DNA of 25,758 bases, taken from a virus. The position numbers and the translations under genes are program-made. The stretch covers positions 1 through 25,758 of IMG/VR virus record IMGVR_UViG_3300017752_000133; one strand, given 5' to 3'. This document shows positions 1 to 15,960 of this stretch, piece after piece (the stretch's first letter is position 1; each line of letters begins with the position of its first letter). The notes under the pieces were generated by a model. That model did no database searches, was not told where the DNA came from, and worked only from the letters and a program-made list of their open reading frames with translations.

Positions 1-2144
1 TCGCCTACTAAATCTTTAATCATATTACCTGGAACATAGTCTGGTAGTACTGCTTCTAGTGCTGCTTTAATATCATAAGTCTTTTTAGCCATAGTAATAA
101 AGTCATCTACAAATGGTGCTAACGTGTCGTTTTGTTCCATTTCTGCAGCCACTTCATCAATCTCTTGTGCTACATCACTCATGCGACCTTCTTCTACACT
201 TTCTGTAGCACCCTCAAACCATCCAAGTTCTCTAAGTGCTTTCATAACCTTTGTCTTGACTGCTTTGTCTTCACCACCAGCATATTTAATGAAAAGTTCT
301 TTTACTTGCTCGTCGGTTGCAGGATCTTCCTTTTCAATTTTATCTAAAATTCTGTTTGCTTTGTACATTACTTCGCCACCTTTGCCACCTACATATCCTG
401 TAGTTGTTTTGGTGCCTTTGAATTCCCCTGGCTTGTCTGTTTTAATAGTATATCCTGGTTCTAATTCAATCTCTGCTTCTTCTACACTTTCTGCTTTGCC
501 TTTCAAACCAGCAAGCACTGCTTTGATTGCGTCTGTATACTGTTCTGGATATCTGTAACGACCACCGTATTGATTATTTTCGAGCCACTTAATGATCACC
601 GGACGAGCATCTCTGTCAGCACCATTTTTCTCTACAAACACAGCTATGTCATCCAACATATCGTCATCACCTACAAACTTCATTACAGCATTGATAGCAT
701 CTTCGCCATCTTCTCCTGCTTTAAGAGGTTGTTTGAGAAGGTCAAGGAAGTCTTTAATCTCTTCCTCTGTACTAAACAAATGCCAAGTGCCTTCTGCAAT
801 CATATCCATGCTCTGTTCAAATGATTCAAATGTTACACTCTCAGACTTCTCTTTGCCGTACAAATCTTTCTTAGCAGCCTTCTGTTTGACTTCGTACTTG
901 CCTTGGATAAACTTCTTAGCAAGTGCATAGCCTGCTGCCATGTGCTTTTTGTTTTCTACATCAAACTCACTCATTGCATTAGCAAGATTGTCATTAGTAC
1001 TATTCTTAACTAGGAAACGCACAATAGCAACTACTAGTGCTTGATTCTTACGCTGTGCTTCCATATCACTGTTTTTAATGTACTGCATGTAGTTTTTGAT
1101 TTCAGCCATGTCTGCTTCATTATCAAAGATTTCAATGGGCTCATCGCTCATTGCCATCTTTAGTGCTTCTTCATCATTTGCTTCACGCATTTGTGAACGT
1201 TGTTCCATAGCACGACGTACTGCTGGTAGCGCAGTTGTAAGACGTTCGTCATACACTGTACGAGTTAGTTTTTCTTTAAGATCGTCTAAATCGCCTTCAT
1301 CTTCTACTGCTTCTGGAACCCAGTTTTCAAAGTAAGATTGATAACCATTTGCACTTGCCAGGCTTTTTAGCGTATCTTTCAAACCATAGTATCTGTCTGT
1401 TGCGGCTTCAATGATTTCGTTTTGTTCATCTGTGACATAATCTTCACGCTTAATAGCACGAACAAATGTTTTAAGGTCATTCATTTCATGCATTATGCTT
1501 ACAATATGTCCACCTCGTTCATCACGAGTGTGACCTTCGTTGCTAATGTGTCTTGCCATTGCTCTCGCACCTGGCAGATAGTTATTAGCAAACTTAAAGC
1601 GTTCGCCGTCTGCATTCTCAATGTAGATTGCTTTGATGTTGCGGCTTCTCGCACCCATCTTAGTTTCGTCTACTGTCTTATCATGTTGAATAATAAGTTT
1701 TGCGGTTCCTTGTTCTAAGAAACTCTTTTGGCTGGTTCCATACATTTTGTTTTCCATCACTTCGTCCTGGCTACGTTGTGTTAAAAACTGATAATCTTTC
1801 TTATCAAGTCGTTCTTTTGTTACGTTATGTGTTTCATAGTTAAGCATATTTCTTGCACTGAACTTGCTTAGTTCTTTGAGAAAGCCGTACCAAGCATTTG
1901 CTGTGTTAGTGTCTACATCTTCCACCATGCTGTTTGGGAAGTATACTTGCAATACGCCTTCTTCATTGAGGCTTATTGTTACTGCACCTACTGGTAAGTT
2001 TCTGTGTTTAAAGTTAAACTCAAAGAAACGTGCTTGTTTTGGATCTGTAGTGACTGCACCAGTTTCATCGCCTAAGCGAATACTGCTAACTCTACTACGA
2101 ATCTTATCAAATAGTTCTTGTGATATGTTTTCTATTGGTCGCAT
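1..2144 (-). CDS. Large uncharacterised phage protein, C-terminus beyond the left edge
   Basis: An open frame of 714 codons runs without a stop from an ATG at 2144 off the left edge, so the C-terminus is missing. The visible protein is hydrophilic, rich in Glu, Lys and Asp, with no signal peptide or membrane segment. Helical charged stretches dominate, and the short element ESV recurs (residues in ESVTFESFEQ, ESVEEAE and ESVEEGR), perhaps marking repeated or processed segments. I do not recognise a catalytic motif. It follows gp17 on the same strand, 14 bases downstream of its stop, but has its own late promoter whose predicted start site is the A of this ATG; no Shine-Dalgarno is visible. 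Large size, late promoter and position suggest a virion or assembly protein. This is inference; the family is not identified. Confidence 0.85.
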   Translation of the reverse strand, partial: MRPIENISQELFDKIRSRVSSIRLGDETGAVTTDPKQARFFEFNFKHRNLPVGAVTISLNEEGVLQVYFPNSMVEDVDTNTANAWYGFLKELSKFSARNMLNYETHNVTKERLDKKDYQFLTQRSQDEVMENKMYGTSQKSFLEQGTAKLIIQHDKTVDETKMGARSRNIKAIYIENADGERFKFANNYLPGARAMARHISNEGHTRDERGGHIVSIMHEMNDLKTFVRAIKREDYVTDEQNEIIEAATDRYYGLKDTLKSLASANGYQSYFENWVPEAVEDEGDLDDLKEKLTRTVYDERLTTALPAVRRAMEQRSQMREANDEEALKMAMSDEPIEIFDNEADMAEIKNYMQYIKNSDMEAQRKNQALVVAIVRFLVKNSTNDNLANAMSEFDVENKKHMAAGYALAKKFIQGKYEVKQKAAKKDLYGKEKSESVTFESFEQSMDMIAEGTWHLFSTEEEIKDFLDLLKQPLKAGEDGEDAINAVMKFVGDDDMLDDIAVFVEKNGADRDARPVIIKWLENNQYGGRYRYPEQYTDAIKAVLAGLKGKAESVEEAEIELEPGYTIKTDKPGEFKGTKTTTGYVGGKGGEVMYKANRILDKIEKEDPATDEQVKELFIKYAGGEDKAVKTKVMKALRELGWFEGATESVEEGRMSDVAQEIDEVAAEMEQNDTLAPFVDDFITMAKKTYDIKAALEAVLPDYVPGNMIKDLVG

Positions 2145-2149
2145 ATATG

Positions 2150-2157
2150 TATTTATG
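2150..2157 (-). promoter_or_regulatory. T4-type late promoter (CATAAATA), leaderless spacing
   Basis: CATAAATA on the minus strand matches the T4 late -10 box TATAAATA in 7 of 8 positions. Exactly five bases separate it from the ATG at 2144. With T4 geometry the transcript would begin at the A of that ATG. Confidence 0.6.
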
Positions 2158-2158
2158 C

Positions 2159-3724
2159 CTACATCATAATGAATGGCATCGGATCCATGTTATAATCGTC
2201 ACTGTCTGCCATGTGACTATCAAGCTCTGGATTGTAACTTTTCAGCGTTTGTGCCATACGCATTACTAACAGTGTTGCCATTACTAGGTCATCTGTATCA
2301 CCTACTTTAGCACTGTAACTATTTCCACTAGCAATGAAACTTTTAAGTTCACTAATAAGAGCTTTGCTGTTTATCTTTACTTTTTCTGTTTCTACCAGTG
2401 TTTTGAACTTAGCACAGACTGTTAGTTTACTGCGATGTGTAGTGTTAAAGCCTCTTCTATATGCTCTAGCATTGCCGTGTGATTTTGGTTCTGTTAAGAA
2501 AAATCCTGATATGTTTTCTTCACCTATTTCTGCAATGCTCATTAATGCTGCTTCGCCAATAGTATTGTTCTCTACACTGTAGTACACACTATTGTTATCA
2601 CCGCATTCCTCAACTAGATACTTTGTTATGTCCATTAATATGCGAACTTGTTGTGGAATAGGAGTTTTGTTATGACTCCATTCGCCTACCTGTATCATAC
2701 TAGGCACTTCAAATATCTCAATAGCCGCTGGATCTCCGCCAGTACCCAAACTAGGATCAAGTCCTACTAGATAACTTTTGCCTTTTTCTGGTTTTTTATA
2801 CCAACGTACTTTGCCGTGTCTAAAACTAGGATCATTGCCAATCATGTTAGTAAGCACAAGACTGTCGATCAATGTTTCATCGAAGATAATAAACTCACAA
2901 TCGTGTTCACGTCTAAAACGTTCTTCTCCAATACGACCTAGTTCTTCTGCTTTCCATTGATCGTCTCTGTCTGGATGTTCCCACCAGTAACTGCGGTAAC
3001 TCTTAAAGCCATTAACACCTATATCTGTTTCTTCTCCATCGCTATCAAATGTTTTGTTAGCATCACGCCAAATAGTTGCAAACTGGTCTTCGTCACTGTT
3101 AGGTGTACTTGTAATAATAGCCTTACCACCTGTTGCTAGCGTAGGCGAAATACTAGTCCAAAACTCACGAGCAATACTAGGACGCACAAATGCAAACTCA
3201 TCACAGTATAGCAATGTAATACTCATGCCTCGACCAGTGTTGTCTGTAGTTGCTTGTGCTACAATACGACTGCCATTATCAAAGTCAATGCTACCCTTGT
3301 TATAACTAGTAACACCTGCACGAATATGATCTGGACACAGTTCATAAGCATAGCGTATGCGTTGCATAATCTCCTGCGCACCAGCATACTTGTGTGCCGC
3401 AATAAGGATTACACTGTCTGGTACAAACATTGCATACCATAGCAAGTAGCCTGCGGCTGTTGTTGATTTGCCTGTTTGTCTGGGCAACATGTTAATGTTA
3501 AAGCGATAGTTGTGATAAACGTCTATAAGTTTTTCTTGGTATTCAAACGGATTATACACCATACGACCTTTAGTAGGGTGCTGAATAGCAAAATAGTTGC
3601 TGAGAAAGTATTTTACTCCGTTCTTAGGATCGGCGCACTTAGCAAACTCTGTGAGTTGTTCACGAGTAAATGTTTCTTTTTTGTATGCTTTTTTAACTAG
3701 CACACCGTCTAGGCTTTTAGACAT
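2159..3724 (-). CDS. 17: Terminase large subunit (T4 gp17-like ATPase/nuclease)
   Basis: This 521-residue protein is the DNA packaging motor of T4-like phages: an N-terminal ATPase pumps DNA into the prohead and a C-terminal RNase H-fold nuclease cuts the concatemer. Visible motifs are the Walker A LPRQTGKST (residues 80-88), Walker B LLYCDE with D175 and E176, and the coupling motif TSTPNS (205-210). The nuclease acidic residues are D323 in GLDPSLGTGGD, E385 in SVENN and D478/D479 in DTDDLVMATL. Length fits the family (T4 gp17 is 610). All key residues are present, so it should be active. The start ATG overlaps the stop of the upstream 141-residue gene (TAATG), implying translational coupling. 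The gp16 partner lies about 4 kb away, not immediately upstream as in T4. Confidence 0.97.
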   Translation of the reverse strand: MSKSLDGVLVKKAYKKETFTREQLTEFAKCADPKNGVKYFLSNYFAIQHPTKGRMVYNPFEYQEKLIDVYHNYRFNINMLPRQTGKSTTAAGYLLWYAMFVPDSVILIAAHKYAGAQEIMQRIRYAYELCPDHIRAGVTSYNKGSIDFDNGSRIVAQATTDNTGRGMSITLLYCDEFAFVRPSIAREFWTSISPTLATGGKAIITSTPNSDEDQFATIWRDANKTFDSDGEETDIGVNGFKSYRSYWWEHPDRDDQWKAEELGRIGEERFRREHDCEFIIFDETLIDSLVLTNMIGNDPSFRHGKVRWYKKPEKGKSYLVGLDPSLGTGGDPAAIEIFEVPSMIQVGEWSHNKTPIPQQVRILMDITKYLVEECGDNNSVYYSVENNTIGEAALMSIAEIGEENISGFFLTEPKSHGNARAYRRGFNTTHRSKLTVCAKFKTLVETEKVKINSKALISELKSFIASGNSYSAKVGDTDDLVMATLLVMRMAQTLKSYNPELDSHMADSDDYNMDPMPFIMM

Positions 3725-4149
3725 TAACCAATCCTTACTTTAAACTGTTGCGGTGTTGTACTTAGTCTGATGACTTCGCTGACGATTTCAAAATGTTGAC
3801 ATAGATCCTGAAATAGGTTATAATGTAGTTGTTTACTGGCAATGTCATAACTTGTCTTGCCAATATTAATATAGTAGTCTGTGCTCACTCCATAGTCAGG
3901 AAAAACACTAACTACAAACAAACACACATCTGCAAGTTCTTTTGCGTTTGCGCTATCTCGTCTCGTTAATTGAAGATAACTTTCTGCAAAACTATCCGCA
4001 GGTAGAAAATCTGGACGGTCAACAAAGCTGCCTAATAGTATTGCACAGTATGCTTCTACATCCTCTGGCAATGTGTAGCCCGCATGTTGACTGGTTTGCG
4101 CAATGCAATCCTTAAAAGCAGATATGTAATGATTGTCAACATATCTCAT
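3724..4149 (-). CDS. Uncharacterised 141-residue protein coupled to gp17
   Basis: The open frame extends upstream to 4221, but that part would overlap the divergent HNH gene. The ATG at 4149 (MRYVDNHYIS) sits just behind a perfect late promoter and is the best start. The product is soluble and mostly helical, with a central stretch LADVCLFVVSVFPDYGV followed by DYYINIGKTSYDIAS. I do not recognise a named family or a helix-turn-helix. The stop codon overlaps the gp17 ATG (TAATG), so it is translated together with the packaging motor. T4 has gp16 in this position, but a better gp16 candidate is at 7601-8113. A packaging accessory role is an inference from position only. Confidence 0.8.
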   Translation of the reverse strand: MRYVDNHYISAFKDCIAQTSQHAGYTLPEDVEAYCAILLGSFVDRPDFLPADSFAESYLQLTRRDSANAKELADVCLFVVSVFPDYGVSTDYYINIGKTSYDIASKQLHYNLFQDLCQHFEIVSEVIRLSTTPQQFKVRIG

Positions 4150-4154
4150 ACAAA

Positions 4155-4162
4155 TATTTATA
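4155..4162 (-). promoter_or_regulatory. Consensus late promoter TATAAATA, leaderless spacing
   Basis: This is a perfect TATAAATA on the minus strand, five bases before the ATG at 4149. By T4 late-promoter geometry transcription would begin on the A of the start codon. There is no room for a Shine-Dalgarno. It probably drives the 141-residue gene and gp17. Confidence 0.8.
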
Positions 4163-4177
4163 AAAACAACCCAGGGT

Positions 4178-4185
4178 GGTAAATA
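4178..4185 (+). promoter_or_regulatory. Late-promoter-like box GGTAAATA for the HNH gene
   Basis: GGTAAATA matches TATAAATA in 6 of 8 positions, with the TAAATA core intact. It lies eight bases before the ATG at 4194, giving a predicted leader of only about three bases. It is arranged back to back with the minus-strand late promoter at 4155-4162, 15 bases away. Confidence 0.45.
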
Positions 4186-4193
4186 ATAGTGCA

Positions 4194-4739
4194 ATGAGTG
4201 ATACGCTACTTTTAAACACAAGTGGACAACCTATATCACAGTTCCCTGTCAGTGTCATCGACTGGCGTAGAGCAGTCAAACTTTACTTTCAAGATCGTAT
4301 AACAGTGCTTAACTGGTATGAAGATTGGGAAGTTAGCAGTCCAACAACTACCATGAAAGTTCCTGCAACTATCATGACAAAACGCTATCATCACATTAAA
4401 AAACCTGTACGCTTTAGTAGATTCAATGTACATATGCGTGACGAGTTTAAGTGTCAGTATTGCGGAGACGAACATACATTTAAAGAACTTACCATGGACC
4501 ATGTAAAGCCTCGTAGTGCTGGCGGAACTACATGTTGGATGAACATTGTTAGTGCTTGCAAAGATTGCAATAGGGACAAAGGCAGTGATTTGTGGCGGCC
4601 CATGCGGGAACCGTTTGAACCAAATGTATATCAACTAGCGGCTCTTCGGAGCCGTTTTCCGTTTCAAGTAAAACATCAATCATGGCTAGACTACATTCCA
4701 AATGGCGAATATCGTGAAACTAGTTCAGTACGGGTGTAG
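4194..4739 (+). CDS. HNH endonuclease
   Basis: The 181-residue product has the domain order of the common HNH family. An N-terminal segment beginning LLLNTSGQP with VIDWRRAVKL is followed by KKPVRFSRFNV and the zinc/HNH module. That module has C87-x2-C90, the D102-H103 catalytic pair in TMDHVKPRSAGG, N117, and C122-x2-C125 followed by NRDKG. The core should therefore be an intact metal-dependent nuclease. A GTG at 4176 would add six residues, but the family N-terminus fits the ATG at 4194 better. It diverges from the gp17 operon and overlaps the next gene by 38 bases. It may be a homing-type nuclease or a packaging helper; HNH proteins beside terminases are known packaging components in other phages. 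The sequence does not decide between these. Confidence 0.93.
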   Translation: MSDTLLLNTSGQPISQFPVSVIDWRRAVKLYFQDRITVLNWYEDWEVSSPTTTMKVPATIMTKRYHHIKKPVRFSRFNVHMRDEFKCQYCGDEHTFKELTMDHVKPRSAGGTTCWMNIVSACKDCNRDKGSDLWRPMREPFEPNVYQLAALRSRFPFQVKHQSWLDYIPNGEYRETSSVRV

Positions 4740-5292
4740 TGTTAGTTTAGGCGAGGAAGCCACTATCTGTTATGGGCAACTCATAGCAGAACAGTTAGGC
4801 TATGACTTTATACAACGCAGTGAAAGCAGTGCTAGTAATCCTCACATAGCATTAAAGTTTTGCGAAACTTACACCGATATTACGCCTGATGATTTAGTTA
4901 TATTTGGATGGAGTCATCCTAATAGGCAAAGTTGGTACAACAAGTACCAACAGCGTTGGGAACATATGAACTACATTCAACAGAAAGAACGTGGCAGTAT
5001 AAACACAGAAAGCGTTCGTGATTATATACTGCATCAAAACTGTGATTACATAGAACAGTTACACGGTTGGTATCCTCGTCACATAGTAGAAACTACATGT
5101 GAGTTAAACAATCTAAGATACATGCATGTGGATTGTGTACCAGGAATGGTAGGAATATTAGGTGCGGATGGAAGTAATAATAAAAGTAAGTCAAAATATA
5201 TAGCGGATCACTTACATCCTAATGACGAAGGTCACCGCTATATTCATCGGTTGTTACAGAATCAACTGAAGTTTGGATCATCCTCGCCGTAG
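4702..5292 (+). CDS. SGNH/GDSL-hydrolase-like protein
   Basis: The 196-residue product carries the scattered blocks of the SGNH hydrolase fold. Block I is YGCSVSLGEE (candidate nucleophile S13, Cys replacing the Asp of GDS). A G-W-S-H stretch at 69-72 stands at the position of the G-x-N-D block. The C-terminal D169-x2-H172 is in ADHLHPNDEGHRYI. Such enzymes act on esters, for example acetyl groups on carbohydrates; the substrate here is unknown. There is no signal peptide or membrane segment. The ATG at 4702 lies inside the end of the HNH gene, indicating coupling. The 3' end overlaps the convergent gene at 5262-5522 by 31 bases. The weak third block leaves open whether it is catalytically active. 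Confidence 0.8.
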   Translation: MANIVKLVQYGCSVSLGEEATICYGQLIAEQLGYDFIQRSESSASNPHIALKFCETYTDITPDDLVIFGWSHPNRQSWYNKYQQRWEHMNYIQQKERGSINTESVRDYILHQNCDYIEQLHGWYPRHIVETTCELNNLRYMHVDCVPGMVGILGADGSNNKSKSKYIADHLHPNDEGHRYIHRLLQNQLKFGSSSP

Positions 5293-5522
5293 TCGCCGTC
5301 CTCACCTGGGTGATTCATGTCATGTTCTCTACGGAAGTCTGCGACAAAGCGTTTAATATCGTCACCGCTCATAAAGTTTACAAGCTCGTCAATAAGTGCT
5401 TTGTGTGCATCGCTTGGACATTCACCGCCACAGTAATCATCTTGTAGTTCGTAGAATGGTTCTGCAAACTCGCCTGATGCTTCAGTTGTAAGTTGGTCTA
5501 GGCTTTCCAATAAATCACGCAT
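5262..5522 (-). CDS. Small acidic protein with MRDLLESLD N-terminus
   Basis: This 86-residue acidic protein begins MRDLLESLDQ, the same nine residues that start the LysM-like protein at 6280-7065, although the DNA differs. The C-terminal tail is very acidic (DGDYGEDDPNFS). No enzyme motif is visible. Its ATG overlaps the stop of the upstream gene (TAATG), so it is the last gene of the run from 7568. The shared N-terminus resembles the short capsid-targeting peptides of T4 internal head proteins, which gp21 removes after L/I-x-E; LLE-S would fit. A role as an internal or scaffold-type head protein is a hypothesis from this peptide and the operon. Confidence 0.8.
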   Translation of the reverse strand: MRDLLESLDQLTTEASGEFAEPFYELQDDYCGGECPSDAHKALIDELVNFMSGDDIKRFVADFRREHDMNHPGEDGDYGEDDPNFS

Positions 5523-6283
5523 TACTTCATATCTTTTCTAACTTGTCTTAGAGGAGCATCATCGTACTTGCTGTCTCTGTTTTTCAACCAGGATTTACTA
5601 GTACCACCTTTGCCAGCACCTGCAATGATTTTTCCGTCTTTAGTTGCTACTGCTTGGATTCCTTCATCAGCTTGTTCTTCGTCAAGTTCAATCTCTTGTG
5701 CTTCTAAAAAGTCTTTGTAAGACTTGTATAGATTTTGTTCTACACTTTCAATAGTGTCTTCTTCTTCAACTTTGCGTGGCTCTTGATCCATTGGATTGTC
5801 ACCACCAGCTGCTGCAGGATGCATATTCTTAGGTCCGTTAAGTCCGCCACTTAGACCAATAAGTTGATCTTCAATGTCCATGTATTCTTCTTCTGGCTCG
5901 TTAGCATATTCTTGTACTGGCTTGTATCCATCAAAACCTGCTAGTTGCATAAGTTCTTCAAGTGCAGCTACAGGAACTTCAACAGTTTCTTCAACTTCTT
6001 CCTCAGCAACTTCTTCTTCTTCAACTTCTAGGTCATCTTCTTCAGCAAACTCTAGTTCTGCTTCAGGTGTTTCTACTTCTTTAACTGCTTCTTTCTTCAT
6101 TTTCTTTGAATTCATTGGGCCTGATGCATCTATATCAATTGGCGAACCTTTCATAAGTTTTTCTAACTCATGCTCTTCGTCATCTTTTTTGCCTTCAACT
6201 GCAACATCTTCTTGCTGAATGTCTTGCTCTGCAAGTTCAGCTGCGATATCTGCTAGTCTGTTTCTAAGTTCAGCAATATTCAT
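5522..6283 (-). CDS. Acidic scaffold-like protein
   Basis: The 253-residue product is highly charged, with a long Glu run at about residues 75-105 (EVEEEEVAEEEVEETVEV) that should form a helix or coiled coil. A conserved-looking segment follows at about 118-170, including LAGFDGYKPVQEYANEP, DQLIGLSGGLNGPK and AAAGGDNPM. I recall this segment from proteins of marine T4-like phages. The C-terminus is basic (LRQVRKDMK). There is no catalytic motif, signal or membrane segment. The gene overlaps both neighbours (ATGA upstream, TAATG downstream), so the group is co-translated. Composition and context fit a prohead core or scaffold protein, but no T4 counterpart can be named. Confidence 0.85.
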   Translation of the reverse strand: MNIAELRNRLADIAAELAEQDIQQEDVAVEGKKDDEEHELEKLMKGSPIDIDASGPMNSKKMKKEAVKEVETPEAELEFAEEDDLEVEEEEVAEEEVEETVEVPVAALEELMQLAGFDGYKPVQEYANEPEEEYMDIEDQLIGLSGGLNGPKNMHPAAAGGDNPMDQEPRKVEEEDTIESVEQNLYKSYKDFLEAQEIELDEEQADEGIQAVATKDGKIIAGAGKGGTSKSWLKNRDSKYDDAPLRQVRKDMK

Positions 6284-7065
6284 TTTTTGTCTCCGGTGTT
6301 AAATCGTTTCATTTGCCCGCTTGTGCTGGGCTTGGCATCAACCATGCTTTTGATCTGCTGATACAAACTATCTGCACGTTGTTGCTTAGTTGGCGTTGGC
6401 TGAGGTTTAGGTTGATCAGCAGGCTTCATTTTAGGTTGAATAGGATTGCTAACTGGTGTAATTTTGCCGTCTTTATCCGTAGAATATGTATTAGGCAAAG
6501 CATTTTTAGTATCTTGTGATGCCCTTGGATCTGACTGTACACCTTTTGCAAAAACGTCTGCAGCTTTATCCCCTGCCATGTTTTTAATCGCATTGTATTT
6601 GTTTGTTATTTGAGCTGTCTGGTCTACTGGTTTTGTGTCTACTGCTTTTGTAGCTTTTGGCTCGGCTTTGTTTTTAGGGCTAAAAATGCCTAACGGATCA
6701 GCGCCACCTTGTTTAGGTCTGTCTTTTACTTTTGCTCTGACTTCAGGTGATGGATTCATGATGTTTAGTGGATCAGGTCCTTTACCTTTTTTAGTTGTAG
6801 GAGCATTACCCAAGTCATCACCGTCATATTTTCCATCAGGGCCTGATTTACCAATATTACCTAGTCTGTAATCCTGTGCTATACCACTAAGTGTATCGCC
6901 ACGCTTTACTGTGTAACTGCCGCCGCCCGGCAGTGTAATCTTTTGACCTGGATAAATCTTATCTGGGTTTTCAATACCGCTTAGTTTAGCAAGTGTACTA
7001 TAAGTTACACGCTCGTCTAGATCTTGTTCTGCAATACTGTCCAGGGATTCTAGTAGATCTCTCAT
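6280..7065 (-). CDS. LysM-like protein with swapped LysM halves
   Basis: The 261-residue protein starts MRDLLESLDS, shared with the gene at 5262-5522. Residues 21-46 (TYSTLAKLSGI to YPGQKITLP) look like the second half of a LysM domain. Residues 51-67 (YTVKRGDTLSGIAQDYR) look like the first half, so the order is reversed relative to a normal LysM. The remainder is a low-complexity linker rich in Pro, Lys, Gln and Thr, probably disordered. LysM domains bind peptidoglycan or chitin and occur in phage tail and lysis proteins. Without a signal peptide or lytic domain, this is more likely a virion or assembly component. The ATG overlaps the previous stop (ATGA), with AAGGAAG as ribosome binding site. 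Confidence 0.85.
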   Translation of the reverse strand: MRDLLESLDSIAEQDLDERVTYSTLAKLSGIENPDKIYPGQKITLPGGGSYTVKRGDTLSGIAQDYRLGNIGKSGPDGKYDGDDLGNAPTTKKGKGPDPLNIMNPSPEVRAKVKDRPKQGGADPLGIFSPKNKAEPKATKAVDTKPVDQTAQITNKYNAIKNMAGDKAADVFAKGVQSDPRASQDTKNALPNTYSTDKDGKITPVSNPIQPKMKPADQPKPQPTPTKQQRADSLYQQIKSMVDAKPSTSGQMKRFNTGDKK

Positions 7066-7568: not shown

Positions 7569-7594
7569 TGCCGTATTCCTTGCTAATATACTAC

Positions 7595-7602
7595 TATTTA
7601 TT
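7595..7602 (-). promoter_or_regulatory. Late promoter AATAAATA fused to the gp16 stop codon
   Basis: AATAAATA on the minus strand (7 of 8 matches to TATAAATA) overlaps the TAA stop of gp16, forming TAATAAATA. It is followed by a 26-base gap containing AAGGAA before the ATG at 7568. Confidence 0.7.
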
Positions 7603-8113: not shown

Positions 8114-8122
8114 AATATTTTC

Positions 8123-9157
8123 CTAGTTATTGAGATACCAGTTTATCTCGTTGTCACGTTCTCCAAACAATATGCACAAAGGTCTTACTACATCACTGTT
8201 GTTCCATGTAGCATGACAGTAGTTAAAGTTAAAGAAAGTGCCATGATCCAAGTTTATCAATCCTGCTTGACTTACTTTAAAGTAATGTCCCTTTGTGTCC
8301 TCTGCTAGATTAAGCACAAAACTACAAGGGCCTTGCAAGTGCATTTTTGTTTCCTGTTCATAGTGTGTATCCACATGTGGAGCAAATGTTTCACCTGGAT
8401 ATTGTGTTTGCAATGTTACTGCAAGCATACGTTTAAATCCAACAAGTTTACAGAGTTTTTGCAGTTCTTCTCCTGGCAAATCTTCTATCTCTGTAAAAGG
8501 CAAATACGGGCTTTCTCTGAAACATCTGCGTCCTCCTCGGAGTTCAACTCCTTTTTTAGGAAAGGCAAACTCTTTGCTATCTCTGTTAAACTCGCACATT
8601 GCATCCATTTCTGCTAATAGTTTTTTCTTATCAATGTCTGCAAGCACACTAGGATCTAGTGTTTCGTAAGGAGTGGTTACACTGTTTTTACGCCACCATC
8701 TAGGACCATTGCTATGTGAAAAGAAACCTCTCACATGCTCAGGATAGTCTGTGCTTAGTGTTACAGGAGTATCTATAGTGTGTATATACTTGTCAAATAA
8801 GTTAGTACTAAAATCTCGATGTACAATACTTTCTTTTAACGTTTGCCATATCAGTCCAATATTTGGATGTATCCAGATTTCATACTGTCCTTGAGTATAT
8901 AATGTTGTACCTGGACAAACTTTGTTTCCTGTGCTTGTTTCTAAAAACCATCCACTATATAGCAAGTTTTCCAATGTACGTCCGTTTATCTTGATATCTT
9001 GTATTTTTAGTTTACTGCCAGGATATTCAATCACTAGTTTATACCAAGTATAAGATACATCAAAAAACTTTCCACATTCAAAGTTTACTATGTTGCCGTC
9101 TACGTCCTGCAAATAGAAGTTTTGCAGAGGCTTGTTTGCAACAATGTCTATTAACAT
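8123..9157 (-). CDS. 2OG-Fe(II) oxygenase-like protein
   Basis: The 344-residue product has a C-terminal double-stranded beta-helix signature. This comprises H261-x-D263 in APHVDTHYEQ, the distal H315 in FNFNYCHATWN, and R325 in DVVRPLCILF as likely 2-oxoglutarate ligand. This is the layout of Fe(II)/2OG dioxygenases, perhaps of the Asp/Asn-hydroxylase or prolyl-hydroxylase kind. The N-terminal 180 residues form a separate beta-rich region with WYKLVIEYPG, suggesting recognition or assembly. The substrate could be protein, nucleic acid base or small molecule and cannot be inferred. A TTG at 9160 precedes the ATG; I chose the ATG, which has AGGAG at good spacing. It lies between gp16 and gp4, an unexpected place for an oxygenase. 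Confidence 0.8.
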   Translation of the reverse strand: MLIDIVANKPLQNFYLQDVDGNIVNFECGKFFDVSYTWYKLVIEYPGSKLKIQDIKINGRTLENLLYSGWFLETSTGNKVCPGTTLYTQGQYEIWIHPNIGLIWQTLKESIVHRDFSTNLFDKYIHTIDTPVTLSTDYPEHVRGFFSHSNGPRWWRKNSVTTPYETLDPSVLADIDKKKLLAEMDAMCEFNRDSKEFAFPKKGVELRGGRRCFRESPYLPFTEIEDLPGEELQKLCKLVGFKRMLAVTLQTQYPGETFAPHVDTHYEQETKMHLQGPCSFVLNLAEDTKGHYFKVSQAGLINLDHGTFFNFNYCHATWNNSDVVRPLCILFGERDNEINWYLNN

Positions 9158-9181
9158 CAATGATTCTCCTAGGATTGTATG

Positions 9182-9195
9182 AAGTACTAGTACTT
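9182..9195. repeat. Perfect 14-base palindrome
   Basis: AAGTACTAGTACTT is perfectly self-complementary and lies in the short gap between the gp4 stop and the oxygenase start. With no loop and no T-run it is a poor terminator. It could be an operator, a weak hairpin or a restriction-type site. Confidence 0.6.
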
Positions 9196-9199
9196 AGTG

Positions 9200-9640
9200 C
9201 TAGCGTTTACCGTTGTGAAATATGTCGTCTTCTGTCACGACACGAAAGCGAAGACCTTTGTGTTTCGCCCACTTTGCAGCCGCTTCCCACTTTGCATGGT
9301 TAATAGCGATTGCTAGTTTCTCTTTTTCACGAGTCTTTTCGGTAAGCATGGTCTGTGCTTTAGGTTTGATTTCAATAAGCTCGGCATGTTTTTGACCTTG
9401 TTTGTTTTGATATACTACAACAAAGTCAGGCACATATATAGTACCTTTGCCTGTCAGTGGATTACGATATGGTATAGATATTGCTTCACTAGCCCAACTA
9501 ATAACACTTGGATGATTATCACAAAAGCGCATAAACGCATGTTCCCAGGCACTTCGATAGCGAGGCTCTTTGTTGCCGCTATATTTTCCTGGATTCTTGA
9601 TTGTATATATACCGTTTGCGTATTTGTTACGGCTGAACAT
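9200..9640 (-). CDS. 4: Head completion protein (T4 gp4-like, TnsA-type nuclease fold)
   Basis: The 146-residue protein matches T4 gp4 (also called gp50/gp65, about 150 residues), which finishes the packaged head before tail joining. The N-terminus has the typical GIYTIKNPGKYSG and YRSAWEHAFMRFCD. The residues E33, D72 (in VPDFVVVY) and E90-x-K92 (in LIEIKPKAQ) give the E-D-ExK arrangement of TnsA/PD-(D/E)xK nucleases, so a nuclease-like active site is preserved. The ribosome binding site GGAGG lies in the last codons of the upstream gene; only one base separates its stop from this ATG. Together with gp16 and gp17 it makes this strand a packaging and head-finishing unit. Confidence 0.92.
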   Translation of the reverse strand: MFSRNKYANGIYTIKNPGKYSGNKEPRYRSAWEHAFMRFCDNHPSVISWASEAISIPYRNPLTGKGTIYVPDFVVVYQNKQGQKHAELIEIKPKAQTMLTEKTREKEKLAIAINHAKWEAAAKWAKHKGLRFRVVTEDDIFHNGKR

Positions 9641-9641
9641 G

Positions 9642-10013
9642 TTACGCCTCCACTTGGCGTTTCATATTTTCTGTTGGCTGAATGTCTGCTTCGTATCCTA
9701 GCAAACTAGTTGATCTACGACTGAGATTTAAAAAAGTTGGAACTGCACTTTTAAGATCTTCGCTATCTTCAAACTGTTTAAGGACATCTAAAATATAAAT
9801 GTTTAATCTGTTTGCGGCTTCTACAGTTGCCGCAGTAAGTGCAGCGGCTGCTTCTTCTGTGTTAGTTCTAGCAATAAAAAATGATTTTGCTGCTTCGTAT
9901 TCATTGTCAGTCATAACAATATCGTCAGCAAAATAGTTAACAAAATAATCTTGCACACGCTGGTCAAAAACATCAGCTGGATTTGTTAGAGGTAGATTTG
10001 TATTTTGAGACAT
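9642..10013 (-). CDS. Uncharacterised 123-residue helical protein
   Basis: This short protein is mostly helical, with VQDYFVNYFADDIVMTDNEY, an Ala-rich helix (EEAAAALTAATVEAANRLN) and a C-terminal LNLSRRSTSLLGYEADI. I recall similar small proteins with an R-x-T-S-x-L-G-Y ending beside tail genes of marine T4-like phages, but no function is established to my knowledge. Its ATG overlaps the stop of the baseplate tube-fold gene (TAATG), and its end supplies the ribosome binding site of gp4. An assembly or structural role is likely only from this embedding. Confidence 0.8.
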   Translation of the reverse strand: MSQNTNLPLTNPADVFDQRVQDYFVNYFADDIVMTDNEYEAAKSFFIARTNTEEAAAALTAATVEAANRLNIYILDVLKQFEDSEDLKSAVPTFLNLSRRSTSLLGYEADIQPTENMKRQVEA

Positions 10014-11275
10014 TAACTTATCCTGTTGTTACCAATACCTAACCCTCTAGCGAAGTCTGCTACAAGATTTGTATCACTGATTTTACCTGGGTAACTCTGT
10101 GTTCTATCTCCGCTTGGAGCTATTTTAGCACCACCGAAGTTATTTTGACTAACTCTTCTAGTGTTGTTTTGTGTTTGTATGTTTTGTCCTTGACTTGAAA
10201 CTTTTCCCTCAAACAAATCACCTACAAAGTTTACACCTGATTTTATATAGCCTTCTGCAGCTGATACTATGCCAACTTCATTAACTTTATTTGTTACAGC
10301 CGCTTCAATAGCACCTGTCACAGGCACAAGAACATTACTGCTTAGTTTCTTGCCTGTCAGTGCATTGTTTGCAACAATAGCAAGGGTATCCTGCAACAAT
10401 CCTCCGGTAAGGTTAAAGCCAAGTCTTGCTTCATCATGTATTATGGTTGCATCTTTGATGACACCAATAACATTGCCTTGGAACAAGTCTCTACTTCGTT
10501 GTCCTTCTACACTTTGTAAACTACCATCAATAAATGCTTGGTTTTCTGGCAGATTATTACTTAGATCACTGGTCTCAACATCGTAATGTATATCACCAAA
10601 TCCACGTGGGCTAATATTATTCACATAACCAGTTGCATATTTTACAGTTTCATATGCAAGTTGCATTGTATGCTCCATCAATGCACCACTAGCATAAGCA
10701 TGAGCATCATGCTGAAAACTTGTAATAATAGGATTAATCAGCGTGTATTCAGCAAACTTATGATTGTGCATGCTGTATATTTTAATGTTTTTAAAGAACC
10801 TTTTGTTGCCTCTTTGCATGCCCCATTGTTGTTGTGTGCGATCTGTGTACTTGTCTGTAGTAGTATAACTGTTTCCATCTAATGCGTATGTTGGATCCGC
10901 GTTGTAGTATATGTAGTATTTGTGCCACATATTTCTAATAACTTCTTTTTGGTCATCATGGAATCTTACTGTAATAGGTTGATAGTCTATTCTGTGATGG
11001 CTCTGTGTTCTTCTATTATACTGATTGTGTGTTTGTACGTCAATAGTATATGCTGGAAGATCTACACTTTTTACAAGTATAGGTATTTCCAGTTGATCAA
11101 CTGTATTGAATAAAGTACTTGCGTCAGGTGTAAACTCAAACACAACATGAAACAGATTACTGTAACGTGGTTGTAGTTCAAAGTTGTTATCAACAAAAGT
11201 GCGTGACCCATGTTTGTAGTCACGCACTGTACCTGTCGCTGATAAACCATTTAGTAATGGATTCACACTAGCCAT
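10013..11275 (-). CDS. Tail-tube-fold baseplate protein (gp54/gp48 type)
   Basis: In this 420-residue protein the first 220 residues have the plan of a tail-tube fold. YSNLFHVVFEF is followed by LVKSVDLPAYTIDVQTHNQY, then PITVRFHDD and a returning strand series (RFFKNIKIYSMHN, AEYTLINPIITSF, MQLAYETVKYATG). The same plan is seen in gp19 next door. In T4 such proteins cap the baseplate hub and start tube growth (gp54, gp48). The C-terminal 200 residues are Gly, Asn and Ser rich and perhaps extended. Its place directly after gp19 supports a tube-initiator role. I cannot separate gp54 from gp48 by eye. The start is supported by TAGGAG upstream, 13 bases after the gp19 stop. Confidence 0.75.
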   Translation of the reverse strand: MASVNPLLNGLSATGTVRDYKHGSRTFVDNNFELQPRYSNLFHVVFEFTPDASTLFNTVDQLEIPILVKSVDLPAYTIDVQTHNQYNRRTQSHHRIDYQPITVRFHDDQKEVIRNMWHKYYIYYNADPTYALDGNSYTTTDKYTDRTQQQWGMQRGNKRFFKNIKIYSMHNHKFAEYTLINPIITSFQHDAHAYASGALMEHTMQLAYETVKYATGYVNNISPRGFGDIHYDVETSDLSNNLPENQAFIDGSLQSVEGQRSRDLFQGNVIGVIKDATIIHDEARLGFNLTGGLLQDTLAIVANNALTGKKLSSNVLVPVTGAIEAAVTNKVNEVGIVSAAEGYIKSGVNFVGDLFEGKVSSQGQNIQTQNNTRRVSQNNFGGAKIAPSGDRTQSYPGKISDTNLVADFARGLGIGNNRIS

Positions 11276-11287
11276 AGAAAACTCCTA

Positions 11288-11905
11288 TTAGCCAGTTACT
11301 GTTTGACCAAGTGTTCTCGTTACTGCAGCACCAATGCCATCACCTAGTGGAGATTGCACAGCGTTGTCAAATCTAAGTTGCAAAGTAATGGTTGCTGGAT
11401 CTTGTGATGCGTAATCTAAATCACCATAGTTGATGTTTTGTACAAAGCATCCATATAGTTCCCATGTTTCCAACACTGATGGAGTGTTAGCACCGTTACC
11501 GCCGTCTAGTAGTTCAAAACGTGTAACGAACTTGTAGTCAATACCTGAACTAGCACTGCTCTGCTCCATAAAGTCAAACTGCTTCTGGATTTGCTCTCCA
11601 CACAACTTTGTGACGCCACCGTTTACATCATCACGCATAGTGATAGTCACAGGATCCCAAGTGTGCTTACCTACCAAATAGACTTTACTGTTGTAGATAT
11701 CAATCTGCTGTTCTTCAAAAGTCACTGCAGGTCTTGTGATATTCATAACTTGTTTAGTCATTTCAGTACGTGGAGTACTAATACCAAAGTTTTCAAAGCT
11801 CGCTCTAAAGCGATACTTTAGTTTTGGCATCAACAAGCCTTGGCTTGATGCACTCTGATCACCGTCAATAGGTACTGTAAACTTTGTTAATGATGAAACT
11901 GACAT
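11288..11905 (-). CDS. 19: Tail tube protein (T4 gp19-like)
   Basis: The 205-residue protein (T4 gp19 is 163) forms the stacked hexameric rings through which DNA leaves the head. Family features are KYRFRASFENFG near the N-terminus, TRPAVTFEEQQIDIYNSKVY, the strand DPVTITMRDDVN, WELYGCFVQNINYGDLDY and the closing ATITLQLRFDNAVQS. It lies directly behind the sheath gene, as in T4. It is separated from gp18 by a strong terminator and has its own late promoter and AGGAG site. Tube and sheath dosage can therefore be set separately. The C-terminal extension of about 25 residues is Gly/Thr rich. Confidence 0.93.
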   Translation of the reverse strand: MSVSSLTKFTVPIDGDQSASSQGLLMPKLKYRFRASFENFGISTPRTEMTKQVMNITRPAVTFEEQQIDIYNSKVYLVGKHTWDPVTITMRDDVNGGVTKLCGEQIQKQFDFMEQSSASSGIDYKFVTRFELLDGGNGANTPSVLETWELYGCFVQNINYGDLDYASQDPATITLQLRFDNAVQSPLGDGIGAAVTRTLGQTVTG

Positions 11906-11933
11906 TTCGTTTCGCTCCTATTTAATATAAAAG

Positions 11934-11941
11934 TATTTATC
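11934..11941 (-). promoter_or_regulatory. Late promoter GATAAATA for gp19
   Basis: GATAAATA on the minus strand (7 of 8 matches) is followed by C, as in the extended T4 consensus, and gives a leader of about 23 bases carrying AGGAG. It sits just downstream of the terminator, so gp19 can be transcribed independently of gp18. Confidence 0.75.
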
Positions 11942-11954
11942 TGTTTCCAGTCAT

Positions 11955-11988
11955 AAAAAATGGGGGGTATCTCAACCCCCCATATTTT
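11955..11988. terminator. Bidirectional intrinsic terminator between gp18 and gp19
   Basis: A perfect nine-base stem (ATGGGGGGT at 11960-11968, ACCCCCCAT at 11975-11983) with a six-base loop is flanked by an A-run on one side and a T-run on the other. It reads as a rho-independent terminator on both strands. On the minus strand it ends the gp18 transcript 17 bases after the stop codon. Confidence 0.92.
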
Positions 11989-11999
11989 TCTTATTTTTA

Positions 12000-14900
12000 T
12001 TATACTGTGCTTGCAGCCGCTACGTTACCGCTTGCAATCTCACCTGTGTTCTTAAGTCTGATCGGAATAAAGATAAACTCCGCAGCCTTTGTAGGTTCAA
12101 TAGCAACGTCTACATACAACTCGTTGCGGTCGATTCTTTCACTAGTGTTGTTTGTTTCATCACACACTACCAAGTAATCGTAAATACCGCGCTTTGCAAC
12201 CAAATCGTTAAGAGTTTGTTCAACCTGTTGTTTGATTTCATCTCTTGTTAGTTTATCGTTTGGTTCAAATACAAAGCCAGTTGCAATAGTTTGTAGTTGA
12301 CGTCTTAGGTATCCTGTTAAACGTGATACGTTAATACGGTCCAATGCACTTGTGCTTGGAGCACGAGTCTTGTTACCGTAGTTAAGAATCCCACTACCGT
12401 TGAAGAATGCAATAGGATTAACTCTGTTTGAGTACAGTGTATCTCTTACTGCTTCACGGATGTTGTCTACAACAAACTGTCCTGTTATACCATTAATATA
12501 GCCTAGGCTTGCAATGTTATCTACTAGTCCACGTCTTACGCCAGCTGGTGCAAACCATGGGAAACTAATATCATCGCTTCTTGCAATAGTTCTTAGCATT
12601 GCATGACTTGCAGGAACAACAATACTGTTGCCACTTAGGTCATTTGTGCTTGCGCTTGGATAGAAAACAGCCAAATGCGGATCACTAGTAACTAGCCCAT
12701 CTTCGTTGTTATCTGCAGCCGCTGCTGTGTTAGTAGCCCAGTTTTCAATAGCAGTTGGTGTAGCTGCTAGTCTCATTGGACTGTCACCTACTACAAATGC
12801 TGTTTGACGTCTATCGTTGTTCAAACCTACCATGTTGCTGATTAGCTCTGGATACCCTGGAGCTGCAATAACATTAAATGTTCTTGCATCTTCACGCAAC
12901 TCTGTGCTTGCATCCAATGAACTCTTCATTGCATTTACAACAACTTCGCGCACCGCTTTACGTCCAAACTGACTGCCACTTTCTGAAACCCATGCATCCT
13001 TCTCTGTTGGAAGTGTTGGATATACAGTTGTATCACTAAAGTTTGTGCGTGAGAAGTAGTTGCTTCTAAACTTCTTCACACCGTAAGTACTGCGACGTGT
13101 GTTGAATAGCAACATACCACGCGGATAAACAGTTGGATCTGGACGATCAACATCTAAGTAATCGCTACTAAGTAGTGTCTTAGTTGTTGCAATAGTTCCT
13201 GTGATTACGTCTGTACTGTTATCGCCAATAAAACGAGCATCTCCAAAGATAATACCGTTTTCAGTTGTGCTGTCTGTCTTATCAATAGCAACCCATTGTG
13301 TTTCTCCGCTTACAGTTTGATATCTGTAAAGTGCTGGATAGTTCTCAAGGTCACTTGTATCAATCCAAAGGTCACCTTCAACTAGTGCAGTTTCATCACT
13401 TTGCTGTGTTGGTTCTGCTGTGCTATAGAGTACACCATTTGGACTTGTGTTTGCTAGTGCATATCCTCTTGCATCTGTGATGTTTTGATAGCCTCTCCAA
13501 GTTGTACCATCGTGTACTAGGATGTCTGCTTCAAATCCACCGTGATACCAATGTGTACCATCTACTGGATTTGCACTAGGAGCACTTGTAGCTGCTGTAT
13601 AAGTTGGAGCAATCCAGTTACTTAGAATCAAATCACTGTTGTTGCCTGCACGAACCTGTCCAGTTGTAATGCCTGTGCTAATGCCTGCATCTGCTAGTGG
13701 AGTACCACTTGTATCTTTTGCTACAATCAACCCACCTAGTGAGTGTTTAATAACCAAGTTGCCTGCACTGTTAACACTTGCACTTACGTTAGCAACATTA
13801 GCACCGTTAATATCACTTGCCATATCTGCTAGGCTTGTGCCGCTTAGTATTACTGTTACTGCTGTCGAAAGTGATGTACTGTTTGCAACACTTGCTTGGA
13901 TAGTAAACTCTTCACTTGCTGTAAGTGGATTAGCACTGTCAACTGTGCCAGTAACTTCTAGTTCGCCACTGCTGTAACGTTGGAATAGTTTGTAGGTTAC
14001 AGTATCGTTTTCAGTTGCATCGTACTGGATATAGTAACTACCTGCAGCAATGTTTTTACCGCCAGTTGTGTCCAAGTTCTTAAGTGCAGTTTGATCATTT
14101 TCATACGCTGGTGCACTCTTGCTAGCAAAAGCAGTGTTTGCAGTTGAGTATGAACTTACGTCTGCTAAGAAACCTAAGTTACTTGCAGTTGTTTTGACCC
14201 ACACACTTCCTGTTGGACGTGGAACAGTATCTGTTGTTTTCCAAGTTGGCACTGTATAGTGTGCGCTCTGCTGGATAACTGGAGCAGCATATGTACCTGC
14301 TGTAAGTCCGGCATCTGATAGGATTGTGCCTGAAGCATTTGCTAGTACAATCTTACCATCTGCAACACTGTCTACGCCTACTGCTGAACTTGTAGCATAG
14401 ATTTCAATCTTATTACTCTTAGCCGCTGCTGTTACACCTGTAATACTAGCATTATTAATACTTGTTGCAAGTTGTGCTACAGTTGTTCCTGTGAGTGTAA
14501 CTGTTGTACCGTTAATGGTAATGCTGTTACCGTTTGTAAACAATGGGCTTGCTACTGTGCCTGCAATAGTTGCATGGCTTGTTTGCCAACTGCTACTGCC
14601 TACTAGTACCCATGCATTGTCTCTGTTCTTATAATAAACAGGATTGTTAGCGTTGGTTGCAACCAATGCATAATCACCAATAGCACCGATTGAGGTCTTT
14701 GGAACGCCGCCTGTTAAATCTGTTGTACTTGTAATAACTGTTGGAACTTTATTTGTAAATGCGCCTGTTGATTTATTCCATTCAAATATACCCCAACGTG
14801 TATCTGCGCTGATGTCCCACCATACTGTATTGTTAGTAGGTTGACCTAGTGGACGACTTGTACTGCTTACAAGTTCACTAAGGTCAATGTCTGCTCTTAG

Positions 14901-15227
14901 GACGTATGCGCGGTTGCTTACTCCTAGCAAACTATAAGCTGCCATCAAACCATATTCGTTAAGTTCATAACCGTTAATAGGTGTGCCAGCTGATGTATTG
15001 TAAAAAGTTGGATTACCAAAAGTAGCAGTTAGCTCTCTTTGGCTTCCGATCAAGTATGTCTCGCCAGCATTTGCAGCGGTTGTTCCAACTGCTGTGCCTG
15101 TGCCAGTACCACTTGTTTTATCTTGTGCCGTTGCAATAACAATCGCTGCTACTGTGCCGGCTGCTGAAGGTGTGTAGTTACTTTCGTCAACAACGGTAAC
15201 TTCTACTCCTGGTGATATTAGTGCCAT
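12000..15227 (-). CDS. 18: Tail sheath protein (T4 gp18-like) with large insertions
   Basis: The 1075-residue product is the contractile sheath, much longer than T4 gp18 (659). The N-terminus (ALISPGVEVTVVDES, then LIGSQRELTATFGNP and YVLRADID) and the C-terminal domain from about residue 700 carry the conserved sheath core. C-terminal landmarks are PRGMLLFNTRRSTYGVKKF, WFAPAGVRRG, NRVNPIAFFNGSGILNYGNKT and AKRGIYDYLVVCDETNN. Between about 150 and 660 lie inserted surface domains. Two are related repeats (229-312 and 441-522) with a flagellin-hook-IN-like pattern. Others are short aromatic modules (for example 599-652) also seen in gp14 and gp15. A consensus late promoter and AAGGA site precede the ATG, and a strong terminator follows. 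Confidence 0.96.
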   Translation of the reverse strand: MALISPGVEVTVVDESNYTPSAAGTVAAIVIATAQDKTSGTGTGTAVGTTAANAGETYLIGSQRELTATFGNPTFYNTSAGTPINGYELNEYGLMAAYSLLGVSNRAYVLRADIDLSELVSSTSRPLGQPTNNTVWWDISADTRWGIFEWNKSTGAFTNKVPTVITSTTDLTGGVPKTSIGAIGDYALVATNANNPVYYKNRDNAWVLVGSSSWQTSHATIAGTVASPLFTNGNSITINGTTVTLTGTTVAQLATSINNASITGVTAAAKSNKIEIYATSSAVGVDSVADGKIVLANASGTILSDAGLTAGTYAAPVIQQSAHYTVPTWKTTDTVPRPTGSVWVKTTASNLGFLADVSSYSTANTAFASKSAPAYENDQTALKNLDTTGGKNIAAGSYYIQYDATENDTVTYKLFQRYSSGELEVTGTVDSANPLTASEEFTIQASVANSTSLSTAVTVILSGTSLADMASDINGANVANVSASVNSAGNLVIKHSLGGLIVAKDTSGTPLADAGISTGITTGQVRAGNNSDLILSNWIAPTYTAATSAPSANPVDGTHWYHGGFEADILVHDGTTWRGYQNITDARGYALANTSPNGVLYSTAEPTQQSDETALVEGDLWIDTSDLENYPALYRYQTVSGETQWVAIDKTDSTTENGIIFGDARFIGDNSTDVITGTIATTKTLLSSDYLDVDRPDPTVYPRGMLLFNTRRSTYGVKKFRSNYFSRTNFSDTTVYPTLPTEKDAWVSESGSQFGRKAVREVVVNAMKSSLDASTELREDARTFNVIAAPGYPELISNMVGLNNDRRQTAFVVGDSPMRLAATPTAIENWATNTAAAADNNEDGLVTSDPHLAVFYPSASTNDLSGNSIVVPASHAMLRTIARSDDISFPWFAPAGVRRGLVDNIASLGYINGITGQFVVDNIREAVRDTLYSNRVNPIAFFNGSGILNYGNKTRAPSTSALDRINVSRLTGYLRRQLQTIATGFVFEPNDKLTRDEIKQQVEQTLNDLVAKRGIYDYLVVCDETNNTSERIDRNELYVDVAIEPTKAAEFIFIPIRLKNTGEIASGNVAAASTV
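13662..13907 (-). repeat. Second IN-like repeat within gp18
   Basis: This segment codes for sheath residues 441-522: strands, then LSGTSLADMASDINGANVAN, VSASVNSAGNLVIKHS, and an end at TPLADAGISTG. It is related to the copy at 14292-14543 in protein pattern but clearly diverged at DNA level, so the duplication is old. Confidence 0.65.
14292..14543 (-). repeat. First IN-like repeat within gp18
   Basis: This segment codes for sheath residues 229-312: ITINGTTVTLTGTTVAQLAT, SINNASITGVTAAA, KIEIYATSS and an end at TILSDAGLTAGTY. The I-N-G-x-x-V, INxA and GVTA elements resemble the flagellin hook IN motif. Confidence 0.65.
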
Positions 15228-15267
15228 GTTTTTGTTCCTTATCTCTCACAAGATTTTTTTATACATA

Positions 15268-15275
15268 TATTTATA
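15268..15275 (-). promoter_or_regulatory. Consensus late promoter TATAAATA for gp18
   Basis: This is an exact TATAAATA on the minus strand, 40 bases before the gp18 ATG. The leader of about 35 bases holds AAGGA at proper spacing. Confidence 0.88.
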
Positions 15276-15310
15276 TGATCCAGGGCAAAAAACACCTATT
15301 TTGACGAATC

Positions 15311-15320
15311 CCTTTAAAGG
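15311..15320. repeat. 10-base palindrome in the gp18/zinc-ribbon divergent region
   Basis: CCTTTAAAGG is perfectly self-complementary. It lies between the two divergent late promoters, six bases upstream of the plus-strand box. It may be an operator or chance; no second copy was noticed nearby. Confidence 0.4.
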
Positions 15321-15325
15321 TCCGT

Positions 15326-15333
15326 GTTAAATA
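15326..15333 (+). promoter_or_regulatory. Late-promoter-like box GTTAAATA, leaderless spacing
   Basis: GTTAAATA keeps the TAAATA core and is exactly five bases before the ATG at 15339, the same geometry as the boxes at 2150 and 4155. The predicted transcript begins on the start codon. Confidence 0.55.
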
Positions 15334-15338
15334 CATGT

Positions 15339-15668
15339 ATGAGACCGGTTTGCGAGAAATGTGGACAACGTCCAAAAGCAGTAAACTACCGAAAAGGCGA
15401 TAAGGTTTATTATAGACGCAAGTGCGAGCAGTGTCTAAAACTACACAAGCCTGTAAAACCATTATGGGTAGACAGCGGCTATAAAGTAAAGAGAAAGTGT
15501 GAGGCGTGTGGATTTAAACCTACAATAAGAAGCCAGGTCACTGTGTTCTATATTGACGGTGACCTAAATAATGTTTATAGTAGAAACTTAAAAACGGTAT
15601 GTCTAAACTGTAATGCTGAACTAGTTAAGACAGGATGGAGCAGAGGAGATCTTACCCCCGACGATTAA
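15339..15668 (+). CDS. Zinc-ribbon protein with degenerate HNH-like core
   Basis: This small 109-residue protein has four Cys pairs: C5-x2-C8, C29-x2-C32, C54-x2-C57 and C88-x2-C91, enough for two zinc sites. The segment VTVFYIDGDLNN, then SRNLKTVCLNC, resembles the zinc-bound core of HNH proteins. Tyr-Ile-Asp replaces the usual His motif, so nuclease activity is doubtful. I recall close look-alikes as uncharacterised proteins in many marine phages. A GTG at 15324 would extend the frame but overlaps the promoter box; the ATG directly follows a leaderless-type late box. The 3' end overlaps the convergent DUF3310-like gene by 17 bases. A nucleic-acid-binding role is likely; the exact function is unknown. 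Confidence 0.88.
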   Translation: MRPVCEKCGQRPKAVNYRKGDKVYYRRKCEQCLKLHKPVKPLWVDSGYKVKRKCEACGFKPTIRSQVTVFYIDGDLNNVYSRNLKTVCLNCNAELVKTGWSRGDLTPDD

Positions 15669-15933
15669 GGTCATGTACATACAGTTCAATCAATGCGTAA
15701 TGCAAAACTTTCATTAAGTCTTTGCGATTGTGTCCATCTTTCTTGCCGTAACGTTGAGCATACTTCATTACATTACCAATACAAAAGCCATCTCCATGAC
15801 CTGCATCAATGATAAACTCTGTTGCTTGATATTTGTTTAGACTGTAGTGTTCGCCATAGGTTGCATCAATATAGTCTTTGAACTCTGCAATAAGTTCACC
15901 TTCATTGTATTTGTAATCGATGTTTTTACTCAA
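15652..15933 (-). CDS. DUF3310-like small protein
   Basis: The 93-residue product contains the pattern of DUF3310 proteins of phages: an upstream aromatic/acidic stretch (YQATEFIIDAGHGDGF), then GNVMKYAQRYGKK at 53-65 and KDLMKVLHYALIEL. DUF3310 members are sometimes annotated as nucleotide kinase-like, but I know of no firm function and there is no P-loop here. The start is a TTG at 15933 with AAAGGAG eight bases upstream, a strong site for a weak codon. The gene has a near-consensus sigma70 promoter in place of a late promoter, so it is probably expressed early by host polymerase. That is unusual amid neck and tail genes. Confidence 0.85.
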   Translation of the reverse strand: MSKNIDYKYNEGELIAEFKDYIDATYGEHYSLNKYQATEFIIDAGHGDGFCIGNVMKYAQRYGKKDGHNRKDLMKVLHYALIELYVHDLNRRG

Positions 15934-15960
15934 GATAAGAACTCCTTTAACTGTGCTTAC

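Follow-up and report, generated by a model that had tools for sequence, protein, structure and literature searches.

In bacteriophage T4, late genes are transcribed by the gp55/gp33/gp45 system from promoters that carry the box (N)ATAAATA and have no conserved −35 element (PMC2988020, PMC1524935). The box, TATAAATA, lies at −13 to −6 (PMC1524935), and therefore an ATG placed five bases downstream of it (N5) would have its A at +1. The late promoters of the cyanophages S-PM2 and Syn9 have the same box (NATAAATA; PMC2984593), and the phages HTVC008M, Mosig and Melnitz belong to the same family as those cyanophages, the Kyanoviridae. In T4 and the Synechococcus phages that we tested, the box is located about 19–34 nt before the ATG and an excess of sites at a spacing of four to six bases (N4-6) is absent, whereas the phages described here have a second class of late box, positioned at N4 or N5 and lacking a Shine-Dalgarno (SD) sequence. 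The likeness to T4 lies in the box itself, in its position before late genes and in the gp55 homologues found in related contigs and in HTVC008M. The arrangement also resembles that of bacterial leaderless genes, such as those of Mycobacterium tuberculosis (PMC3898074; reviewed in PMC9031893), in the fixed distance from promoter box to AUG, in the AUG being the predicted 5′ end and in the absence of an SD. It differs from them in that the box is of the phage late type and not a sigma-70 −10 element, that the genes are late genes of lytic phages and that the 5′ ends are predicted from sequence. In the open-access papers that we searched, we found no earlier report of a leaderless T4-type late mRNA, although a prior mention is possible.

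Results

Three late boxes in the window lie five bases from a start codon

The DNA that was analysed, referred to here as the window, is a virus contig of 25,758 nt (IMG/VR record IMGVR_UViG_3300017752_000133, positions 1 to 25,758) carrying T4-like late genes, namely gp17, gp18, tail tube genes and fibre-region genes. A first-pass annotation had listed three TAAATA-N5-ATG sites, and all three are present, at 2157-2142(−) (CATAAATACATATATG), 4162-4147(−) (TATAAATATTTGTATG) and 15326-15341(+) (GTTAAATACATGTATG). They are exactly the matches to TAAATANNNNNATG in the whole window; dinucleotide shuffles gave 0.45 expected matches, and none of 100 shuffles contained three or more. Each ATG opens an ORF, and none is preceded by an SD at normal spacing. 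The box at 2150-2157(−), CATAAATA, is situated inside the 14-nt gap past the gp17 stop and is followed at N5 by the ATG (2144-2142) of a predicted leaderless ORF of at least 714 codons (3-2144(−)), which belongs to a virion structural protein family and is cut by the contig end. The box at 4155-4162(−) precedes the ATG (4149-4147) of a 141-aa ORF upstream of gp17 (3724-4149(−)), also predicted to be leaderless, for which a family search gave no match and whose start the ORF caller had placed upstream of the N5 ATG. The third box, GTTAAATA at 15326-15333(+), stands before the ATG at 15339 of a 109-aa zinc-ribbon ORF (15339-15668(+)), likewise predicted to be leaderless, and is itself preceded by the palindrome CCTTTAAAGG at 15311-15320. 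All three boxes end in TAAATA, as had been described, but only the box at 4162 is a perfect TATAAATA.

The three N5 sites were real, but the annotation had overlooked a near-leaderless site, GGTAAATA-N8-ATG, at 4178-4196(+). This late-like box (4178-4185(+)) adjoins the box at 4162 in a back-to-back arrangement and leads at N8 into an HNH endonuclease ORF (4194-4739(+)) that diverges from the 141-aa gene and has a predicted 3-nt leader. The window also contains leadered late boxes, all on the minus strand, that served as a comparison class: those of gp18 (15266-15275, N40, SD present), gp19 (11934-11939, N28), a 251-aa gene (16764-16769, N22), two fibre-region genes of 185 aa (22756-22761, N22) and 305 aa (23702-23707, N22), and a 168-aa gene (7595-7600, N26).

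The spacing is enriched in related phages

Raw TAAATANNNNNATG counts per genome were dropped as a measure, because they were too noisy and reversed controls scored too. We therefore used an ORF-aware test, in which boxes were counted upstream of called ORFs, with the 14 remaining permutations of TAAATA as control boxes. The window alone gave 3 sites against 0.38 expected (P=0.007). N4-6 sites were enriched in every contig of the window's clade that was tested, for example 11 vs 1.87 expected in contig G001 and 7 vs 0.44 in G003. The Pelagibacter phage HTVC008M had 13 sites vs 1.03 expected (P about 1e-10), and the distant contigs G022 and G023, both of which have a gp55 gene, had 12 vs 0.94 and 13 vs 1.08, respectively. 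Mosig, Melnitz and P-SSM2 showed a weaker excess, all of it at N5. No N4-6 excess was seen in T4, Syn9, S-ShM2, PA5oct, Atu_ph07 or two marine single-cell phages, all of which have leadered late boxes; in the cyanophages Syn9 and S-ShM2 there is no N4-6 site at all. Because the contigs of a clade have genes in common, counts pooled over them are not fully independent, and the argument is carried by the single-genome results (HTVC008M and G023).

A motif-free scan of all hexamers at 31 distances upstream of start codons put TAAATA at N5 in first place for the window's clade, for G022 plus G023 and for HTVC008M, above the SD sequences; an SD hexamer was on top in T4, Atu_ph07 and Mosig plus Melnitz. 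The N5 enrichment that the first-pass annotation had suggested looking for in relatives is borne out in the window's clade, G022, G023 and HTVC008M, both by the N4-6 excess over permuted boxes and by the top rank of N5 in the scan. The spacing is non-random, but it is not strictly five, given that N4 and N7 occur too.

Two correlates of the trait were considered and rejected. A restriction to phages of alphaproteobacterial hosts does not hold, since Melnitz, which infects OM43, has a few N5 sites too. A link with the phage-encoded ribosomal protein bS21 was rejected because PA5oct and Atu_ph07 have bS21 but lack the trait; the bS21 gene is found at 20179-20325(−) of G001, the largest contig of the window's clade, and also in HTVC008M and Mosig. 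Two further observations concern individual genomes. TATATT abutting the ATG (N0) is strongly enriched in HTVC008M, Mosig and Melnitz, and a PA5oct gene at 144985 has the sequence TATAAATACGTGTATG and should be leaderless.

Start sites at N4-6 have the features expected of leaderless mRNAs

The assignment of +1 to the A of the ATG in the first-pass annotation agrees with the T4 geometry (PMC1524935). An SD-like sequence was found at 6% of the N4-6 starts compared with 75% of the N15-45 starts in the window's clade, at 15% compared with 60% in HTVC008M, and at 0% compared with 65% in Mosig plus Melnitz. RNA polymerase prefers to start on a purine (+1) that follows a pyrimidine (−1). A pyrimidine was immediately 5′ of the ATG at 95–98% of N5 sites in three sets and at 81% of the zinc-ribbon loci, as opposed to 43–64% of leadered starts, and this bias is what the A of the AUG as +1 predicts. 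At N7 sites the two bases 5′ of the ATG are pyrimidines in 95% and 82%, so that the A of the ATG is the first purine close to where transcription should begin. The start codons at N4-6 in the window's clade and HTVC008M were 54 ATG, one GTG and no TTG, and the N5 ATGs of HTVC008M are the CDS starts annotated by NCBI.

Some divergent gene pairs are separated by 12–44 bp, and the gap holds only back-to-back boxes, which leaves no room for an SD leader unless the promoter lies inside the opposite gene. In the extreme case (G003 and G004), the HNH and 141-aa genes each have an N5 box within the palindrome CATATAAATATTTATATG, and gp2 and gp4 of HTVC008M have 26 bp in common between them.

In the window's clade TAAATA has an A in front of it at 71% of the leaderless-type sites and at 68% of the leadered ones, which fits a T4-type box with a variable first base. 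The first two bases of some boxes differ from TATAAATA, as in GTTAAATA and GGTAAATA, and this A is missing from some boxes of the zinc-ribbon and HNH genes. No common upstream hexamer that could represent a −35 element ranked in the motif-free scan, and the zinc-ribbon loci share the upstream palindrome. The gp55 gene is present in larger relatives, the contigs G021–G024, and in HTVC008M, Mosig and Melnitz; it was not found in the fragments of the window's own clade that were searched.

The spacing is conserved at orthologous genes

We collected 71 virus contigs carrying the zinc-ribbon gene. All 67 loci having a late box place it at N5 (43) or N4 (24), the spacer bases vary, and in proteins that begin one residue further upstream (MQRP vs MRP) the box is shifted along with the start. 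Orthologues of the 714-aa protein retain N5 with six distinct spacers, and those of the 141-aa protein have N5 at all five sites found, with three spacers. At 80 separate TerL loci (65–90% identity to the window's gp17), the gene downstream mostly has N5, the remainder having N7, N19-27 or no box. When genes with late boxes were sorted by protein family, the leaderless-type families (zinc ribbon, Smr-like, 714-aa and 141-aa) had N4 or N5, little or no SD and 3–11 different spacers. The leadered families had N17-42 or more with drifting spacing, and an SD at 95–100% of starts (gp18 and others) or, for gp19, 74%.

The zinc-ribbon palindrome, ATCCCTTTAAAGGT with the core CCTTTAAAGG, is located just upstream of the late box in nearly all loci (L004–L064 as well as the window) and occurs once per contig of the window's clade; distant relatives have CCTTTRTAAAGG at this position. 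At L066:3899-3960, the palindrome and an N5 late box precede a different gene, encoding a signal-peptide-like protein beginning ATGCAACG, and the zinc ribbon of that contig starts elsewhere, so a gene has apparently been swapped in behind the putative leaderless promoter. The window's zinc-ribbon protein has remote relatives in Vibrio phages that carry the annotation HNH endonuclease, and it looks like a degenerate HNH/zinc-ribbon protein.

Virion genes are among the leaderless-type genes

The first-pass annotation had proposed that leaderless messages could separate their genes from the virion genes. This is contradicted by the 714-aa protein, which matches the virion structural family PHROG 13484 and has a homologue in PA5oct whose annotation as a virion protein cites mass-spectrometry evidence, and by HTVC008M, in which the leaderless-type starts include those of the tape measure, gp2, gp4, gp54, a baseplate wedge protein and gp3. 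In G022 and G023 the leaderless-type genes, judged by eye from their sequences, look to include tail-tube-like, baseplate-like and zinc-ribbon genes.

Respiratory genes and the likely host

G001, a relative of the window, encodes a complete respiratory cytochrome b of 403 aa (15683-16894(−)), and this gene is itself at a TAAATA-N5-ATG site. The protein is 89% identical to that of a SAR116 single-cell genome, where, judging by the sequence, the gene is surrounded by the usual genes of a bc1 operon; the Pelagibacter-type entries listed were 64–67% identical, and the phage collection gave a single distant match. A copper-binding gene of the plastocyanin/azurin family lies at 12386-12823 of G001, and the two are possible auxiliary respiratory genes. 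Given the SAR116-like cytochrome b, SAR116 is likely to be the host of the G001 phage and, by extension, would also be the host of phages closely related to the window. Phages of SAR11 and, weakly, of OM43 show the trait as well. A habit of leaderless genes in the hosts themselves was also considered: an SD-like sequence precedes 28% of SAR116 and 10% of SAR11 starts, and a test of −10-to-ATG distances in the hosts was small and noisy.

Discussion

We regard it as highly probable (about 85%) that the boxes described here are T4-type late promoters, recognised by gp55, that specify leaderless mRNAs as a second class of late mRNA. A gp55-type promoter would be placed so that transcription begins on the A of the start codon, and the mRNA would be leaderless or within 1–3 nucleotides of being so, with leaders of 2–3 nt at the N7 and N8 sites. 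Translation would then proceed without an SD, by recognition of the 5′-terminal AUG. Because the same phages have ordinary leadered late promoters with an SD, late mRNA would fall into two architectural classes, set gene by gene. We infer the actual 5′ ends, the recognition by gp55 and the translation from a 5′ AUG; the tests of spacing, SD, start context and enrichment all agree with the late boxes set for leaderless mRNAs and the two mRNA classes that the first-pass annotation had envisaged.

One could envision that the box is instead a −10 element for host sigma-70, giving a leaderless early or constitutive mRNA. A −10 element stands at a similar distance from +1, and a TTGACA-like sequence is found upstream at some of the zinc-ribbon loci. 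That sequence is not conserved, however; the hexamer enriched at N5 is the full TAAATA, which does not match TANNNT, and the same ATAAATA box is found upstream of leadered late structural genes, so we think that this is improbable. Marginally less credible still is the idea that the motif is no promoter and acts in translation, as an AT-rich signal that lets ribosomes start without an SD on longer mRNAs. AT-rich context is indeed frequent at SD-less starts, but such a signal would need neither the exact late-promoter hexamer at a single exact distance nor the pyrimidine before the ATG, and the divergent pairs have no space for a leader from a local promoter. Chance spacing in compact AT-rich genomes has the least to recommend it: AT-rich phages show the raw pattern not infrequently, and reversed controls score too, but this explanation is already strongly disfavoured by the ORF-aware counts, with P as low as that in HTVC008M, by the conservation of spacing across orthologues and by the lack of an excess in the equally AT-rich T4 and PA5oct.

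On this reading, a large group of environmental T4-like phages has many late genes whose promoter is placed for an mRNA that should start at the start codon, without a leader for ribosome binding. T4 lacks the trait, so work on T4 would not have exposed it. The motif is precise, NATAAATA-N4/5-ATG, and can be tested in HTVC008M, Mosig and Melnitz, all of which are in culture. A bolder and rather doubtful version is that a major T4-like lineage runs SD-led and leaderless translation of late genes in parallel, fixed by promoter position alone, with bidirectional promoters down to 12 bp between start codons and a leaderless regime that takes advantage of host ribosomes altered or under stress as infection proceeds to its late phase. 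A different regulation of the leaderless class, through stress or 70S initiation, is speculation. Should the 5′ ends be confirmed, annotation of start codons and promoters would improve, as such starts can be missed when the longest frame or an SD guides the call. A widespread group of environmental phages would then make part of its late proteins from leaderless mRNAs, and late expression would hinge on how the host ribosome handles 5′-terminal AUGs.
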